NCBI RefSeq assembly: GCF_039749495.1 | Contig: NZ_JBDLLU010000005.1 | Span: forward strand, 1-64,000 | From: Dehalogenimonas sp. THU2 | Lineage (GTDB): Bacteria > Chloroflexota > Dehalococcoidia > Dehalococcoidales > Dehalococcoidaceae | Direction of reading: 5' to 3' | Length of the DNA: 64,000 nt | The notes under the pieces: generated by a model | Databases searched by the model: none | Seen by the model: the letters and a program-made list of their open reading frames with translations, nothing else | Told to the model about the DNA's origin: nothing | Shown: one piece after another, positions 53,840 to 61,357 of the stretch | Position numbering within the stretch: the first letter of the stretch is position 1 | How the letters are laid out: every line of letters begins with the position of its first letter | Made by a program: the position numbers and the translations under genes

Positions 53840-55318
53840 TTATTTCCTGGGAGCCATTGGGAATAAGTAATATTTCCGATTTAACAGGAAGAGCCCCACG
53901 ATTATTACAAATGCGATAACTCCGGCAATGAGTACCAGAGGCAGGGAAATTGTGAACCGGCCCGCGCTGTCATTATCCGTAACATCCTCAGGGACACTGA
54001 AATTGACCTCGAATCCGTTGATGCTCGCCAGGTAACTTCCCACGGCTGACCGGTTGATGATAAAGCTGACCACCTGATCGGCGCCGGGCTCCAGCACGAC
54101 ACTCCTGGTTTCAGCGACGGCATTATTCAGCAGCAAATCCATTTGGTAGGCGCCTGACACATCGCCCTCGTTAGCGACCGTAAACTCAACGGTCAGCTGC
54201 TTACCGCCACCGGGAGTGTCATCCACATCGAATCGCCATCCGCTGGTTTCAAACACCGCCGGAGAACCCAGAGTAGTAAATGAAAACTCCCCGGATGCAG
54301 TTTGGTTGCCGGATCCATCCGTGCTCCTGACCTTGAACGTATATGTCGTTGCCGGCGTCAAACCACTGAGCGTGGCGGAGTGGGAAGTCACCAGGGCCGC
54401 GTTACTAGAGGTGAGCGCTCCGGGACTATAGTCTACCGCGCCTGCCGCTTCTTCATCAGTGTTCCATGTAATGGTAGCGCTGGTTTTGGTGATGTCGATC
54501 GCCTGAACCCCGGAGATCAGCGGCGGTGTTTCATCCGGCAGGAGTACGAAGTTGGCAATGATCGTTTGATCGCTGTCCATGTCGATAGTTGTACTTGCCT
54601 GAGATGGGCTGGCTACGTTACCGGTCCAGCCCGCGAAGCGCCAACCCGCTGCCGGGGCAGCCGTTACGGTAACCCGGCTGTCCTGATCAATACTGTGGGC
54701 GCCAACCGCCGGATTAACCGTACCCTCTCCGGTTTTTTGGATGGTGAGCAAATAGGTCGGAACCGGCGGCGTTTCCTCGAAATTAGCCACGATGGTTTTG
54801 TCTGAGTTCATCAGGATGCTGGTGCTGGGCGTATTCGGGTCAGCTACCTCGCCGGTCCAGCTAATGAAAACCCACCCGGAAGCAGGGTAAGCCGTCAATA
54901 CAACCTGGCTGTTTTGCTCGTAATCGCCCGATGACGGGCTGACCGAACCGTTTCCGGATACCTGGATGGTAAGGGAGAAAGTCGGAGGCGGGGAAGTTAT
55001 CGAAAGATCAATGGTGACGGGCAGGCCTCGTTCAGGTAAAGTACCAGATCCGGCCGGAATGCCGTTTACGGTGAAGCTTATGCTATCGCCCGGGTTGGCA
55101 GCGTCCGCGGGAATATCCATACTGTAAGAACCACCGCTGGTGCCGGCGGAGACGCCCAAACTCGATTGGACGTTTGAGCCATCGGGTGCCGGACTGCCGT
55201 CAATGGTCACGCTGCCGTCAATAGCGTAAGGCTGTTGCGGTTGCGCCCGCACGGTAATCCCCGGCAGCAGAGAGGCCAGTAACAAAAAGGTAAGCACGAC
55301 CTTAACGGCGATTCTCAT
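53840..55318 (-). CDS. Secreted membrane-anchored protein with InlB repeats, FN3 and CARDB-like domain
   Basis: 492 residues: signal peptide (VVLTFLLLASLLPGITVRA), a carboxypeptidase-regulatory-like region, two divergent InlB B-repeats (about 110-182 and 184-258, each ending with GWTG-x-V then ANF), an FN3 domain (about 262-347), a CARDB-like domain (about 350-445) and a C-terminal helix (LPLVLIAGVIAFVIIVGLFL) with basic tail. Last gene of the protease operon, 70 bp after it. Cell-surface display is inferred. Confidence 0.85.
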   Translation of the reverse strand: MRIAVKVVLTFLLLASLLPGITVRAQPQQPYAIDGSVTIDGSPAPDGSNVQSSLGVSAGTSGGSYSMDIPADAANPGDSISFTVNGIPAGSGTLPERGLPVTIDLSITSPPPTFSLTIQVSGNGSVSPSSGDYEQNSQVVLTAYPASGWVFISWTGEVADPNTPSTSILMNSDKTIVANFEETPPVPTYLLTIQKTGEGTVNPAVGAHSIDQDSRVTVTAAPAAGWRFAGWTGNVASPSQASTTIDMDSDQTIIANFVLLPDETPPLISGVQAIDITKTSATITWNTDEEAAGAVDYSPGALTSSNAALVTSHSATLSGLTPATTYTFKVRSTDGSGNQTASGEFSFTTLGSPAVFETSGWRFDVDDTPGGGKQLTVEFTVANEGDVSGAYQMDLLLNNAVAETRSVVLEPGADQVVSFIINRSAVGSYLASINGFEVNFSVPEDVTDNDSAGRFTISLPLVLIAGVIAFVIIVGLFLLNRKYYLFPMAPRK

Positions 55319-55388: not shown

Positions 55389-58300
55389 TCAGGTAATAGT
55401 AAGCGTTCGGGGACTGCTCATATAAACCCAATAAGCATTGCCCTGCGTCATTTCCGTTAACGTCGCCGGGCTTCCCGGAATGAACCTCGTCCAGATACCG
55501 GTCACGCCATCGTAATGCCAAACGATAACAACATCATCGATAATACCGGCTAAAACTGTTCCTATATCCGGGTCACCGGGCGCGGTGCCAAGGCTGATAA
55601 GATTCCAACCGGCAGTTAAAGTGATGTCATTCGATGGCGGTATTGTGCCTGAAACTGTCAGTGTCGCTGCTTCCGAAAGGTTGATCCAATATCCGACACC
55701 GCTGGTCATTTGGGTAAGCGACGAGGCAACTCCGGGAATATACCGGGTCCAGGCAGCGCCATCATAAGACCATACGATAACTACTTTATCGATAATGCCT
55801 GCCAAAACATCTGAAATGTCAGTCGAAACGGGAATCACCGGCAAGCCGATAAAATTCCAGCCGGCGATAAGTTCAAGCGTCGATGTTTCCGCCGGGACGG
55901 TCACGGTGATAGTTTCACTGTCGGAAAGACTACCGTCGGAGACCACCACATCGAAAGTGTAGACCGCTCCTCCCTGAGCCTCGGTTGGAGTCCAGGTGAA
56001 GACGCCGTCAGCAGTAATGGAGGCACCCGCGGGAATAGAGCCGCCGGCGCCGTCGGCCAGCGAAAAAGTCAAAATGTCAGCCGGTAAATCGGCGTCAGCA
56101 GCGGTGGCGGTGAAGGTGATCTCCACCAGTTCATCGCCTGATATAGCCCCGATCTCAGCCAGTACCGGGGCGACGTTGACCTCGTTTACGGTCACGGTGA
56201 TAGTTTCACTGTCGGATAGACCGCCGTCGGAGACCACCACATCAAAGGTGTACACCGCACCTCCCTGAGCCTCGGTTGGAGTCCAGGTAAAGACGCCACC
56301 TTCGGTCATGACGGCGCCAGCCGGGGCGCCGCCGTCCAGTGAGAACGTCAAAGTATCCGCCGGTACGTCAGCATCCACAGCGGCGGCGGTGAAGGTGATC
56401 TCCACTAGTTCATCCACCGATTGAGCCCCGATCTCAGCCAGCACCGGGGCGATGTTGACCTCGGCCACGGTAATGTCGAAGGTCTCGAAATCATCAAGAG
56501 CCGGGGTGCCGTTGTCAGTCACCCGGATAGTAACCGGGTAAACTCCCGGTCCCTGGTCCTCGGCCGGCGTCCAGGTAAAGACGCCGTCCTCAGTAATGGC
56601 GGCACCAGCAGGGGCGCCATCGTCCAGTGAGAAAATCAAAGTATCCGTCGGCACATCGACGTCAGCAGCGGTGGCGGTGAAGGTGATCTCCACCAGTTCA
56701 TCGCCTGATTTAGCCCCGATCGCGGCCAGCACCGGGGCGTCGTTGGCGTCAGGTTCAGCAAGTGTCTCAGGCAAATACAACCGCCCATGGCCGTGCGTGT
56801 CGTCATTCCCCGCAGCCCCCATGTCAACGGCATTAGATTCCAGATAATCCCTGACCTGAGCCGGAGTCCAGTCCGGGTGAACCTGAATTATGAGCGCCGC
56901 CGCCCCCGCCGCTACCGGTGTCGCCATCGAGGTGCCCTGCATCACGTAGTATTCAGAATTATCAATCCAATACAAACTGGCCGAGGTATAAATATCACCA
57001 TCCCGGGCCGAAATTACGACACTCCCCGGAGCCACAATTTCAGGTTTAAGGGGCGCTCCGGTGTCAACCCTGGGCCCCCGGCTGCTGAAGGGGGCGATTT
57101 CATCGAGCTCGTAGCCGTAGCTGTGCCCGGCACCTGAATAATCCAGCCAGGAGGCGCGAGTAACATAAGCCCCTATCGCGATGGCGCTATCGGCTTCAGC
57201 CGGAGAATTGAGAGTATAGGCCGGATCGGGATCAGCAAAAGTGACGTACCCGTTCCCGACATAGTACAAATGGAACAACTGAGCCGAGGATGAGTTGTTT
57301 TTAACCTTCAGATAATACGTCCCCGCCGGTTGCGAGGCTACGTTTGAATACTGGCTCTCAGTGCCTCTGAAGCTTTCATTCTGAAGGAACTGGGTCGAGC
57401 CGATCAGGTGCCGGCTGGAATTATAATACTCGAGTTCAAGATCATCGCTTATGCCGGGTCCGTCGAACCAAACCATATTGAAATATAGAGAAGCGGGGGT
57501 ATTGCCGGCGGTGATGGCGATAAAATCCGTTGAATCGTTGCCGGGGACGGTCCCGGAGTAGTGATCCGCGTCATTTCCGGAATTCCCGGCGGCAATCAAG
57601 ACGACCGCCCCCTGACTCACCGCATAATCCACCGCCTGACTCATGGCATCGGAGCCATCGTGGTGATCACTCCAGCCGCCGTAGCTCATGGTGATGATGT
57701 CCGCGTGATAAACATCGACGGCATCTTGAATGGCATTCACCATGGCTTCACTCGTCGCGGAAGCATTGGAGTCGTTCCCTATCTTAAGAAACACCAGGTC
57801 CGCTCCCGGAGCCATTCCGGCGTAAAGTCCGCTGGAAGCTGAACCATCGCCCAGAACGCTGCCCGTAACATGGGTGCCGTGGCCGGTATAATGGTTGGCA
57901 ACGGTCTCGTCCAACGACGGCCAGTTCGAATAATCCTTAACGATCGTTCCGGATGCCAGCGACGGGATGTCAGGATGACTCAAATCCAAACCGGAATCCA
58001 GCACCGCGATGGTAACCCCCGTGCCGTCAAGACCGTAAGAACCGCCTCTCAGCGCAGCCACATTAGTCGCCAGAGCCGCTTCATCATTTTGAGCCTGAAA
58101 AACCCGTTCGGCGGTATCCAGGTGTCGGACGTAGCTCTTGGCCGAGATATCGGACAGCCGGTCAACGGGCATATCGGCAATCAAAAATCCGTCAGGGTGC
58201 GCCCCGACAGGCGGGATCCAGGAATCAAGATAAACAATTACCCCCAGCGCTTCCAGTTCCGCAACCTGGGCGGCATCTGGCATCCGGCTGGAATACAGGA

Positions 58301-58592
58301 ATATTTTTTGCCGGTCGACGCTCTCTACCTGCAATCCCGCAGACTGCAGAATGCCCGCTACACCATCCGCCGATTGGCTTGCCTGGGCCGCCGCCAATCC
58401 GCCCAGGCTTTTGATCTGCTTTTTGGCCTCTATCTGCGCGCTGAGCAGTCCGCTGATCTTCTGGCCGAGGACTTGATCCCGGGCCTGAAGGGAGTGGGTT
58501 TCAGAGGAATCCCCAGCGAACATGCCACTGATGAGTACAATCAGCACCAGCAGGGCAAGACAAATCTGTTTCATTGCGTATTTTTTCATCAA
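55389..58592 (-). CDS. Large secreted S8 subtilisin-like serine protease
   Basis: 1067 residues. Signal peptide (QICLALLVLIVLISGMFAG), a pro-region (about 30-180), then the catalytic domain: Asp199 (VTIAVLDSGLDLSHPDI), His238 (GHGTHVTGSV), Asn337 (AAGNSGN), Ser555 (QGTSMATPVAAG). A PPC-like insert lies at about 365-450. Three Ig-like repeats (NxAPVLAxIGA...DELVEITFTA) cover about 615-905. Two AGWN repeats (AGWNFIGLPV; AGWNLISLGT) end the protein. The start directly follows the lipoprotein stop. Confidence 0.93.
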   Translation of the reverse strand: MMKKYAMKQICLALLVLIVLISGMFAGDSSETHSLQARDQVLGQKISGLLSAQIEAKKQIKSLGGLAAAQASQSADGVAGILQSAGLQVESVDRQKIFLYSSRMPDAAQVAELEALGVIVYLDSWIPPVGAHPDGFLIADMPVDRLSDISAKSYVRHLDTAERVFQAQNDEAALATNVAALRGGSYGLDGTGVTIAVLDSGLDLSHPDIPSLASGTIVKDYSNWPSLDETVANHYTGHGTHVTGSVLGDGSASSGLYAGMAPGADLVFLKIGNDSNASATSEAMVNAIQDAVDVYHADIITMSYGGWSDHHDGSDAMSQAVDYAVSQGAVVLIAAGNSGNDADHYSGTVPGNDSTDFIAITAGNTPASLYFNMVWFDGPGISDDLELEYYNSSRHLIGSTQFLQNESFRGTESQYSNVASQPAGTYYLKVKNNSSSAQLFHLYYVGNGYVTFADPDPAYTLNSPAEADSAIAIGAYVTRASWLDYSGAGHSYGYELDEIAPFSSRGPRVDTGAPLKPEIVAPGSVVISARDGDIYTSASLYWIDNSEYYVMQGTSMATPVAAGAAALIIQVHPDWTPAQVRDYLESNAVDMGAAGNDDTHGHGRLYLPETLAEPDANDAPVLAAIGAKSGDELVEITFTATAADVDVPTDTLIFSLDDGAPAGAAITEDGVFTWTPAEDQGPGVYPVTIRVTDNGTPALDDFETFDITVAEVNIAPVLAEIGAQSVDELVEITFTAAAVDADVPADTLTFSLDGGAPAGAVMTEGGVFTWTPTEAQGGAVYTFDVVVSDGGLSDSETITVTVNEVNVAPVLAEIGAISGDELVEITFTATAADADLPADILTFSLADGAGGSIPAGASITADGVFTWTPTEAQGGAVYTFDVVVSDGSLSDSETITVTVPAETSTLELIAGWNFIGLPVIPVSTDISDVLAGIIDKVVIVWSYDGAAWTRYIPGVASSLTQMTSGVGYWINLSEAATLTVSGTIPPSNDITLTAGWNLISLGTAPGDPDIGTVLAGIIDDVVIVWHYDGVTGIWTRFIPGSPATLTEMTQGNAYWVYMSSPRTLTIT

Positions 58593-59072
58593 TCAGGATT
58601 GCGGACCGGCTTGCGGCTGGATAATGCCCTCCGCGGTATCGAGTTTCACCACCCAGGCTTTGGCGGCCAGTTCTTCAAGCGCGTCCACGGGGGCATCGGC
58701 AATAAGAAAGCCGTATGGGTGAGCGCCCACCGGAGGTATCCATGAATTCATATATAAAGTAATGCCCAGTTCATGGAGATCTGTTATTTGAGACGGATCC
58801 AGGGGTCCCGTCAAATAAATATACAGCCTTTGCAGCCGTAAATCGTCCACGTTCATCCCTTGAGCAAGCATCTCATCCAGCCTGGTTTCCGTAGGCTGCT
58901 CAAGTTGAGACAACCTCAGATTCATCTGTGAAATCAATTCAAGGCTGGCTTTTTCCGTTAATTGCTGATCCGGGCCGGTTGAAAAACACGAGGCAAGAGC
59001 AAGCAGGAAAACACCCGCAATCAACAAGGATAAAGTACGAAAAGTATATCCAGGGAATTTTCGCATCGTCAT
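58593..59072 (-). CDS. Lipoprotein homologous to the protease pro-region
   Basis: 159 residues. Signal peptide with lipobox LASC (Cys29), then a soluble domain. Residues 104-150 align with residues 118-164 of the adjacent protease: both have SWIPPVGAHP, GFLIAD, PVD and LDTAE, about 29 of 47 identical by eye. Stop and protease start are adjacent, so expression is coupled. By family logic, pro-regions act as inhibitors or folding aids; a stand-alone lipid-anchored copy may control the protease. ATG 59072 or the ATG two codons later. Confidence 0.75.
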   Translation of the reverse strand: MTMRKFPGYTFRTLSLLIAGVFLLALASCFSTGPDQQLTEKASLELISQMNLRLSQLEQPTETRLDEMLAQGMNVDDLRLQRLYIYLTGPLDPSQITDLHELGITLYMNSWIPPVGAHPYGFLIADAPVDALEELAAKAWVVKLDTAEGIIQPQAGPQS

Positions 59073-59376: not shown

Positions 59377-59517
59377 TCATTGAGTAATTCCTTCCGTTAT
59401 TCGCCCGGCGACCGCGATACCCCAGGAATCATAGTCCCGGTACTCCAATCGCGCCAGCGATTCAAGCAGATCCGGCTGCGCTTGCCTGTGCCCGTTATAG
59501 CTTATGACGTTGCACAT
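59377..59517 (-). pseudogene. Duplicated fragment of the glmS 5' end
   Basis: A 46-codon frame begins [20 protein letters not shown], nearly the N-terminus of GlmS ([20 protein letters not shown]), and keeps LARLEYR and YDS before diverging and stopping. It lies 49 bp after the glmS stop, and the DNA match extends into the bases before the ATG (TAAAATGTG). The rest of the enzyme is missing, so it is a truncated tandem duplicate. Confidence 0.85.
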
Positions 59518-59566
59518 TTTACACTTTCTTTCAACATCCCCTCCCTCATAAGTAGACGTGGATATA

Positions 59567-61357
59567 CTATTCAACGGTAACGCTCTTGGCCAGGTTGCGC
59601 GGCATGTCGATAGGACATCCTCGCTCCAGGGCGGTGTAATAGGCAAGAAGTTGCAGCGCAACCGCGTTTAACATTGGCGATACGAGGTTTTCTACTTCCG
59701 GTATATGGATCACTCGGTCAACCAGATTGTCGATATCGCTCTCCCTCGCCGGAGTGATGGCTATTACGGGGGCGCCTCGCACCTTGATCTCTCGGATAGT
59801 GTTCAACATGGCCTCGTATGTTGCATCACGGCTCAGGATCACGACTACGGGTGTTTCCGCCGACAAGAGAGCCAATGGTCCGTGTTTCAGCTCACCCCCG
59901 GCGCAGCCTTCGGCGTGAATATATGAGATTTCCTTGAGCTTGAGTGCGCCCTCGAGAGCGATTGGATAATTGAGACCCCGCCCGATGAAGATGACGTTGT
60001 TATATCCGGCCAGGTACTTGCCGCATGATTGTATGTCCTGGTGATTATCGATAATCTGCTGGATATTACTGGGCAGGTGCCGGAAGGCACCCGTTAATCT
60101 GTCCCGGTCCCGCCGATCCAACCGAGAGGAAGAGAGCAAAAGACCATAGATCACTTTCAATTGGGCAGTAAAACTCTTTGTTGCGGCAACGCTGATTTCC
60201 GGGCCGGCTCTGGTATACCATGTCTCATCCGCAAGGCGGCTTGCTGAACATCCCGGAACGTTGGTGATCACAAGGAGTTTCATACCCTCTTTTCGAAGGG
60301 AGCGCATGGCTATGAGAGCGTCTGCGGTCTCGCCGGATTGGGTGATGATAATTCCAAGGTCTTCTGATATGCGATGACGCTGGTAATTGAATTCCGAAGC
60401 GATTTCAATGTGGACTGATAAGCCTAACAATTCCTGTATGAGGTACTTGGCGATCAGCCCGGCGTGGTAGGATGTCCCACAGGCTAGCAGAAGGATGGTT
60501 GGCGGCGGGTTGGAAGACAGGATTTCTATAAGTCCCGGATCACTTCCGCCGGAGTGGGCTAGGACGCTGTTTGACTCCCGTATTATCCGTGGTTGCTCCC
60601 GGATTTCTTTGATCATGAAATGCTCGTGGCCGCCTTTTTGGGCCTGGATGGCGGTCCATTCCACCTCTTTGATCTCGGGAGAAATTTCGCGGCCGTCACG
60701 CCACAGTCTTACTCCCTGGCGCGTGATCACCGCGAGTTCATTTTCCTCCATGAAGATGACCTTTTTGGTGTAATCGAGGATGGCCGGCACATCTGAAGCC
60801 ACCCAGTTTTCACCTTCGCCCAGACCGATTATCAGCGGGCTGCCGCAACGGGCGACGACCAGCTTGTCCTGCTCCTTGTGATGAATCACGGCGATGGCGT
60901 AGGAGCCATCGATCTGGTTCAAGGTGGCGCGGACCGCGGAAGCCAGATCGCCCTGATAGTTTTCCTCGATGAGGTGAGAGATAACCTCGGTGTCGGTGTC
61001 CGAAGAAAACGTGTGGCCGCCGGCAAGAAGGCGTGCTTTTATTTGCTGGTGATTGTTGATGGTTCCGTTGTGAACGACGGCGATGTTTCGGGTGCAGTCA
61101 TAATGCGGGTGAGCGTTGGCCTGATTCGGCTCCCCGCAGGTGGCCCACCGGGTGTGGCCGATGCCGGAGGTACCTTCAAGCGGCTCAGAAGTCGCCGCCA
61201 GGTCAGCCACCCGGACAACGTCCTTCAGTACCCTGATGCTGCCATCAAGGACGGCAATACCGCAGGAATCATAGCCCCGATACTCCAGTCGCGCCAGCGA
61301 CTCAAGCAGGTTGGCCTGCGCCTGCCTGTGCCCGATATAACCCACAACGCCACACAT
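59567..61357 (-). CDS. glmS: Glutamine-fructose-6-phosphate aminotransferase
   Basis: Makes glucosamine-6-phosphate. 596 residues: N-terminal glutaminase with Cys2 nucleophile ([10 protein letters not shown]), [16 protein letters not shown]-terminal isomerase with two SIS domains ([39 protein letters not shown]) and the terminal LAKSVTVE. Follows glmU by 85 bp. No glmS ribozyme is evident. Confidence 0.96.

Follow-up and report, generated by a model that had tools for sequence, protein, structure and literature searches.

Results

The lipoprotein and protease genes

The window, i.e., the whole stretch of 64,000 nucleotides of Dehalogenimonas sp. THU2 DNA that was analyzed, includes two neighboring genes on the minus strand that code for a putative lipoprotein of 159 amino acids (positions 58593–59072) and for a subtilase of family S8 with 1067 residues (positions 55389–58592). 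The lipoprotein open reading frame was recognized by its BLASTP similarity to the pro-region of the protease and by its orthologues in 13 other Dehalococcoidia genomes; these separately encoded relatives of the pro-region are called stand-alone copies here. The protein starts with a lipoprotein signal peptide (58986–59072, minus strand) in which the lipobox LASC, with Cys29 at 58988–58986, can be read from the amino acid sequence. It is followed by an N-terminal half (N-half; residues 39–75, 58848–58958, minus strand), which is helical in the structural model, forms a clade of its own in the tree built from this segment and has six invariant residues, K41, R53, Q56, P60, R64 and M68. The core domain (residues 76–153, 58614–58847, minus strand) includes the blocks SWIPPVGAHP, GFLIAD and TAE, adopts a β-α-β-β-α-β arrangement in the AlphaFold2 model and is matched by subtilisin prosegments. 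The C-terminal tail consists of Q154 and five more residues to the end of the protein (58596–58613, minus strand), and was delimited by the ranges of the VIA structural alignments and a comparison of the tails.

The protease belongs to family S8, as it has a PF00082 domain (E 1.3e-50) with an intact D/H/S triad and the oxyanion Asn. The catalytic residues span positions 56928–57998 of the minus strand and occupy columns that are invariant in the protease alignment: Asp199 (57998–57996), His238 (57881–57879) and Ser555 (56930–56928) form the triad, and Asn337 (57584–57582) is the oxyanion residue. The protein is laid out as a signal peptide, a pro-region, the catalytic domain and cadherin/Ig-like repeats, with matches to He_PIG and Big_9. 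The pro-region block homologous to the stand-alone copy comprises residues 84–168 (58089–58343, minus strand), and the maturation site is predicted at Q168/N169, counted from the TTG codon. Partner proteases have an invariant Asn-Asp directly after P1, and 29–31 residues separate P1 from the catalytic Asp; the corresponding spacing in subtilisin BPN' is 32 residues. Every partner protease has kept its own complete pro-region. Both the protease and the lipoprotein have a hydrophobic segment at the N-terminus that, judged from sequence, resembles an export signal. Two S8 proteases with a pro-region of the same type are encoded in divergent orientation at another locus (L043:261–2765 and L043:3125–4345), the second of which has VIDDGLDTTNPDF near the catalytic Asp where the others have VLDSGLDTTHPD.

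At the junction of the two genes, the lipoprotein stop codon TGA (58595–58593) is followed by TTG (58592–58590) and then by ATG (58589–58587). A preliminary description of the locus stated that the genes touch with zero spacing, which holds if the protease is counted from TTG (0 nt); the distance is 3 nt from ATG, the likelier start. The frames of both genes coincide in the window and the TGA is the sole separator. This coincidence is not meaningful, because gap lengths and frames are unrelated in other lineages, and other loci in which the genes are in frame have additional stops between them. A single gene interrupted by a stop, or expressed by readthrough, was therefore rejected.

Relationship to the pro-region and to known families

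Residues 70–154 of the lipoprotein and 84–168 of the protease are identical at 40 of 85 positions (47%), with 73% positives (BLASTP, E 9e-26), and the motifs SWIPPVGAHP, GFLIAD, PVD and LDTAE, previously described as common to both proteins, were indeed found in both. The lipoprotein and the adjacent protease were the only two matches in their own genome. The term "copy", which had been used for the whole lipoprotein, is too simple, since the N-half is a module that belongs to the stand-alone proteins: N-half identity is 32–65% between stand-alone copies as opposed to 16–49% to the adjacent pro-regions. The stand-alone proteins of two f10 genomes, G390 and G247 (L029:7777–8529 and L032:11041–11775), have an additional N-terminal domain of about 95 residues with a sub-threshold OB-fold (tRNA_anti-codon) match.

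The lipoprotein matched no Pfam family, and the inhibitor I9 profile PF05922 did not appear at E ≤ 1; it did not appear at E ≤ 10 for five orthologues or homologues, and the genome as a whole has no PF05922 match at E ≤ 0.01. Matches to this profile in Dehalococcoidia were located in long frames nearly always (two were shorter than 400 amino acids), and the sole short frame, of 151 amino acids, lies near a contig end. A search against NCBIfam produced one sub-threshold match to an unrelated family, and a sequence profile search of the PDB found no relative. Since the PF05922 profile did not recognize the lipoprotein, membership in this family was rejected and the protein was not filed under it.

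Distribution and conservation of the gene order

The stand-alone gene was found directly upstream of an S8 protease gene, on the same strand, in nine lineages with gaps of 0–154 nt. The distances are 0 nt in the window, 15 in G007, 12 in G862 (JACPPR, L036), 28 in G368, 105 in G018, 14 in G340, 154 in G390, 134 in G247 and 72 in G054, and the nine pairs are spread over six family codes (f1, f10, f11, f28, f32 and f62). This conservation rules out chance and confirms the original observation of a separate copy of the pro-region beside its protease. The homologues, moreover, do not occur mostly away from S8 genes, as 9 of 13 Dehalococcoidia stand-alone genes have one directly downstream; G325, in which the contig ends at the locus, was left out of this count. 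Conversely, all ten Dehalococcoidia genomes found to have a protease bearing this type of pro-region (the nine pairs and G770) also have a stand-alone copy, which in G770 is on a different contig from the protease.

The distribution is sparse. Among eight genomes of the same genus, the pair is present in two (the window genome and G007), and the other six lack both genes. Profile matches were obtained in 11 of 393 sampled genomes of the class; the extra ones came from other orders and from named genomes, and the relatives that bear names are MAGs assigned to Dehalococcoidia or Chloroflexi. A contig scan with a single-sequence query recovered no loci, as compared to 12 with the profile. Searches of viral contigs produced no matches, and a match in G067 was dropped after the profile search did not confirm it. 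One further MAG (L047), which does not belong to these named Dehalococcoidia/Chloroflexi, encodes a protease with this type of pro-region, and its 12 kb locus includes no stand-alone gene.

Stand-alone genes with no adjacent protease were found in four genomes, G262, G350, G769 and G770 (L041), all with family code f32. No S8 gene was found in G350 (96% complete) or G769 (98% complete). The gene order in G340 is lipoprotein, protease and an SDR gene, and in G350, G769 and G770 the lipoprotein gene is directly followed by the same SDR gene. The simplest reading of the common neighbor is that the protease was lost from an ancestral pair; these three loci probably underwent a deletion of the protease gene that spared the lipoprotein gene. 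The altered motifs of the G769 protein led us to consider that the orphan copies are decaying. This was rejected because they retain nearly all of the 21 positions at which the nine paired copies agree without exception (20 in G262, 20 in G350, 21 in G770 and 20 in G769). Persistence of intact copies in genomes where no S8 gene was found implies that the lipoprotein can be useful even without a dedicated protease. A distant stand-alone homologue, possibly acquired by horizontal transfer, is present in a Candidatus Shapirobacteria MAG (L046:9761–10270), where no S8 gene was found.

A lipobox-like motif was identified in 11 of the 12 Dehalococcoidia stand-alone proteins examined, in G770 only when an internal start is used. 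The G368 stand-alone protein (L024:3067–3525) has no lipobox Cys, and the protease at the same locus (L024:3–3038) has the lipobox LSGC. The lipid anchor thus appears to have changed partner, a swap that suggests that tethering one member of the pair matters.

Separate histories of the N-half and the core

The trees of the two parts of the lipoprotein do not agree. In the N-half tree all stand-alone copies form one clade (support 95/98), which points to an old module of single origin and led us to reject a recent duplication in a single lineage. The cores, instead, can be closer to the partner pro-region than to each other. The core and the pro-region of the G368 pair share 85% amino acid and 87% third-position identity, compared with 41% third-position identity in the N-half; the corresponding values for the G390 pair are 85%, 79% and 57%. 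Third-position identity of the core in the other pairs is 28–40% in five, 42% in G054 and 60% in G247. In the core tree, the G368 lipoprotein and pro-region are joined with support of 99/97 and a single lipoprotein clade is rejected (AU test, p 0.022); the G390 pairing is weakly supported (57/83). Gene conversion of the core between the neighboring genes is the simplest reading of the contrast between core and N-half. These results demonstrate homogenization of the core with the partner pro-region in G368 at least; G390 provides a second, less well supported case, and conversion probably took place in two or three lineages. Such exchange would preserve the match if core and pro-region have to bind in one and the same cleft, and it may also be neutral, as can happen between neighboring paralogues.

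Predicted fold and position at the active site

An AlphaFold2 model of the mature lipoprotein, built with 19 relatives, has a mean pLDDT of 90.7 and consists of a helical N-terminal part, a strand-helix-strand-strand-helix-strand domain and a loose tail. This is the ferredoxin-like arrangement of subtilase propeptides, as identified by the AlphaFold2 model and VIA realignment, with Foldseek E-values that are weak. The best Foldseek match was ribosomal protein S6 (E 0.012) and the first propeptide appeared at rank 14, which is explained by how common ferredoxin-like folds are. After realignment with VIA, the top match was the N-propeptide of Tk-SP (3afg; Z 8.7, 91 residues, rmsd 5.3), followed by Tk-subtilisin propeptides (Z about 6, rmsd 2.1–2.6), CspB and the BPN' prosegment; the stand-alone inhibitor POIA1 (1v5i_B) is also in the list (Z 5.3). 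Most of these Z-scores are modest and below the level at which they can be trusted alone as evidence of a shared arrangement. The identification as a propeptide is therefore based on the VIA matches in combination with the identity of 47% to a genuine S8 pro-region that is in its usual position.

The VIA alignments pair model residue 126, which is Q154 of the full-length protein, with the P1 end of several prosegments: residue 77 in BPN' (1spb_P), 69 in the Tk propeptide, 76 in POIA1, 96 in CspB and 152 in PCSK9. By alignment alone, as distinct from a complex, the lipoprotein has the trait of I9 proteins that the C-terminus reaches the P1 position of the cleft. The stand-alone proteins lack the Asn-Asp that follows P1 in the proteases, and most end 1–6 residues beyond P1 (16 in G054). 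With Q154 at P1, no Asn-Asp and a chain that ends soon after, the lipoprotein resembles a propeptide that has been cleaved. That the invariant Glu148 may correspond to the helix-capping acid of propeptides is a guess from spacing alone.

A combined model was made of the mature lipoprotein and the protease through the end of the catalytic domain, with the TGA read through purely to join the chains. Its mean pLDDT is 67.5 and confidence is poor around the catalytic Ser. The modelled pro-region and catalytic domain (residues 225–744) can be superposed as a single unit on the unprocessed form of pro-subtilisin E (3whi; 309 aligned residues, 2.8 Å, Z 27.6) and also on pro-Tk-subtilisin. This zymogen-like superposition indicates that the shared block, in the protease's own copy, sits at the position of a propeptide. 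Displacement of the block from the active site, which would have spoken against the early interpretation, is thus not seen in the model; the pro-region of the protease docks there in the model, and the lipoprotein is expected to do so by homology only.

Discussion

We propose that the lipoprotein is held by a lipid anchor and inhibits the co-encoded S8 protease in trans, in the manner of a propeptide, a reading that we consider probable with modest confidence. According to this proposal, the lipoprotein would be exported and anchored by its lipid at the outer face of the cytoplasmic membrane. The propeptide-like core would dock on the catalytic domain where the protease's own pro-region sits before maturation, and the C-terminal stretch, ending at P1 (Q154), would occupy the substrate-binding cleft. 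It would act as a product-like brake in trans that keeps the newly secreted protease inactive near the cell and shields surface proteins from it, and the protease may be held at the surface until it departs or the inhibitor is degraded. The propeptide fold, the tail that looks cleaved, the zymogen docking of the homologous block, the gene order, the core homogenization and the precedent of SUB1-ProM count in favor of inhibition; the low-confidence combined model, the f32 orphans, the neutral course that conversion can take and the weak Foldseek and VIA scores count against it. The preliminary description suggested an inhibitor, a chaperone or an anchor. A detached pro-region made as a lipoprotein beside its protease is supported by our analysis; the choice among the three roles can be ranked by the sequence data rather than settled.

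The same description named no known system of this form. That statement stands for the full combination of traits but has to be qualified, as eukaryotic stand-alone S8 inhibitors, PrcB and PopD are known. The MEROPS I9 inhibitors (POIA1, yeast proteinase B inhibitor and Arabidopsis SPI-1), TgMIC5 and Plasmodium SUB1-ProM are likewise products of separate small genes with a propeptide fold, and, as with I9-type inhibitors, mimicry of the bound propeptide would be expected of the lipoprotein. To our knowledge, the eukaryotic stand-alone S8 inhibitors are not lipid-anchored. The lipoprotein further differs from I9-type proteins in that its core is 47% identical to the partner pro-region, is homogenized with it in some lineages and is not matched by PF05922. 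Stand-alone propeptide-like proteins are potent S8 inhibitors in eukaryotes, e.g., SUB1-ProM, an inhibitor of SUB1 whose gene is close to S8 genes (PMC6993865). The inhibitors named in that study are eukaryotic, whereas the lipoprotein described here is bacterial and encoded immediately upstream of its protease.

Among bacterial systems, dentilisin of Treponema denticola is encoded by the operon prcB-prcA-prtP, and PrcB, a 23-kDa protein, is likewise a small lipoprotein whose gene precedes that of a surface S8 protease, with no homologues described beyond oral treponemes (PMC8167434). The dentilisin operon has prcA in between, whereas the nine pairs have no intervening gene. Moreover, the lipoprotein described here is related to the propeptide, and its search against Pfam, which matched no family of any kind, gave no sign of a PrcB-related sequence. 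In Myxococcus xanthus, PopD is a separate protein in complex with the subtilisin-like protease PopC, which has no recognized signal peptide and the secretion of which is inhibited by PopD in non-starving cells (PMC6434023). Our pairs are not of the PopC type, since each partner has an apparent export signal and the protease retains a pro-region of its own. In the open-access literature that was searched, which includes few subscription papers, we found no bacterial lipoprotein of this kind, and the stand-alone propeptide-like S8 inhibitors found in it are eukaryotic. The best explanation is that the lipoprotein is a bacterial, lipid-anchored, operon-paired form of these inhibitors that is undetected by the Pfam I9 profile. 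If true, it would show how a cell can release a broadly acting protease and yet spare its own surface from digestion, and the pair would be a compact two-protein system for following the co-evolution of propeptide and protease, including gene conversion. An unannotated family of Dehalococcoidia lipoproteins also gains a functional hypothesis.

Next in rank, although unlikely, is a role as a surface anchor or assembly subunit, in which the core, in the manner of PrcB, would bind the protease to retain it at the membrane and would inhibit it only as a secondary effect or not at all. The prevalence of the lipobox would fit such a role, and so would the loss of the Cys in the G368 stand-alone protein next to a protease that has LSGC, as though one anchor per pair suffices. 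PrcB interacts with PrtP and is needed for its expression (PMC8167434), which would be in line with it as well. However, the part that is conserved is the active-site-directed core up to P1, with no extra binding patch; an anchor would have no need of the P1 tail, and the orphans retain the core. The two explanations overlap, because a tight inhibitor on a lipid anchor would also retain the enzyme.

It is less probable still that the lipoprotein is a steric chaperone, i.e., a membrane-tethered propeptide that would aid folding of the protease in trans after secretion, by analogy with Lif. In its favor, catalysis of folding by S8 propeptides is well established, Lif proteins are separately encoded, membrane-anchored foldases of secreted lipases, and the lipoprotein gene comes first in the pair. 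The enzyme class served by Lif is unrelated, however, and the hydrolase here retains its own pro-region. With a complete pro-region in every partner protease, there is no obvious need for another folding catalyst, and the lipoprotein is kept in genomes where no S8 gene was found. A guard against foreign or other S8 proteases, including those of neighbors, with a pairing that is only historical, is the least probable of these explanations: the usefulness of the lipoprotein without its own protease, i.e., the four intact f32 orphans (two in genomes where no S8 gene was found), the probable deletions next to the SDR gene and the distant Shapirobacteria orphan, keeps the idea alive, but adjacency and order were kept in nine lineages and the core was homogenized with its own partner in at least one, which argues for the cognate protease as the target.

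Inhibition of the cognate protease thus remains our preferred reading. A broader scenario, which we put forward tentatively and as somewhat doubtful in its entirety, is that an operon-encoded, lipid-anchored propeptide would control the protease in trans, would be kept matched to it by gene conversion and would sometimes be retained alone as a shield against S8 proteases.

Other features of the window

An open reading frame located 70 nt downstream of the protease gene (53840–55318, minus strand) encodes a protein that combines InlB B-repeat, fn3 and CARDB-like modules and has a hydrophobic segment at its C-terminus. It was considered as a third member of the operon and rejected, as fn3, InlB B-repeat and CARDB modules are scattered across these genomes. 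On the other side of the pair there is an intact glmS gene (59567–61357, minus strand). Just downstream of it, within a short open frame (59377–59661), a segment of 90 bp (59410–59499, minus strand) is 86% identical to nucleotides 19–108 of glmS and is probably the remnant of a duplication of this gene.
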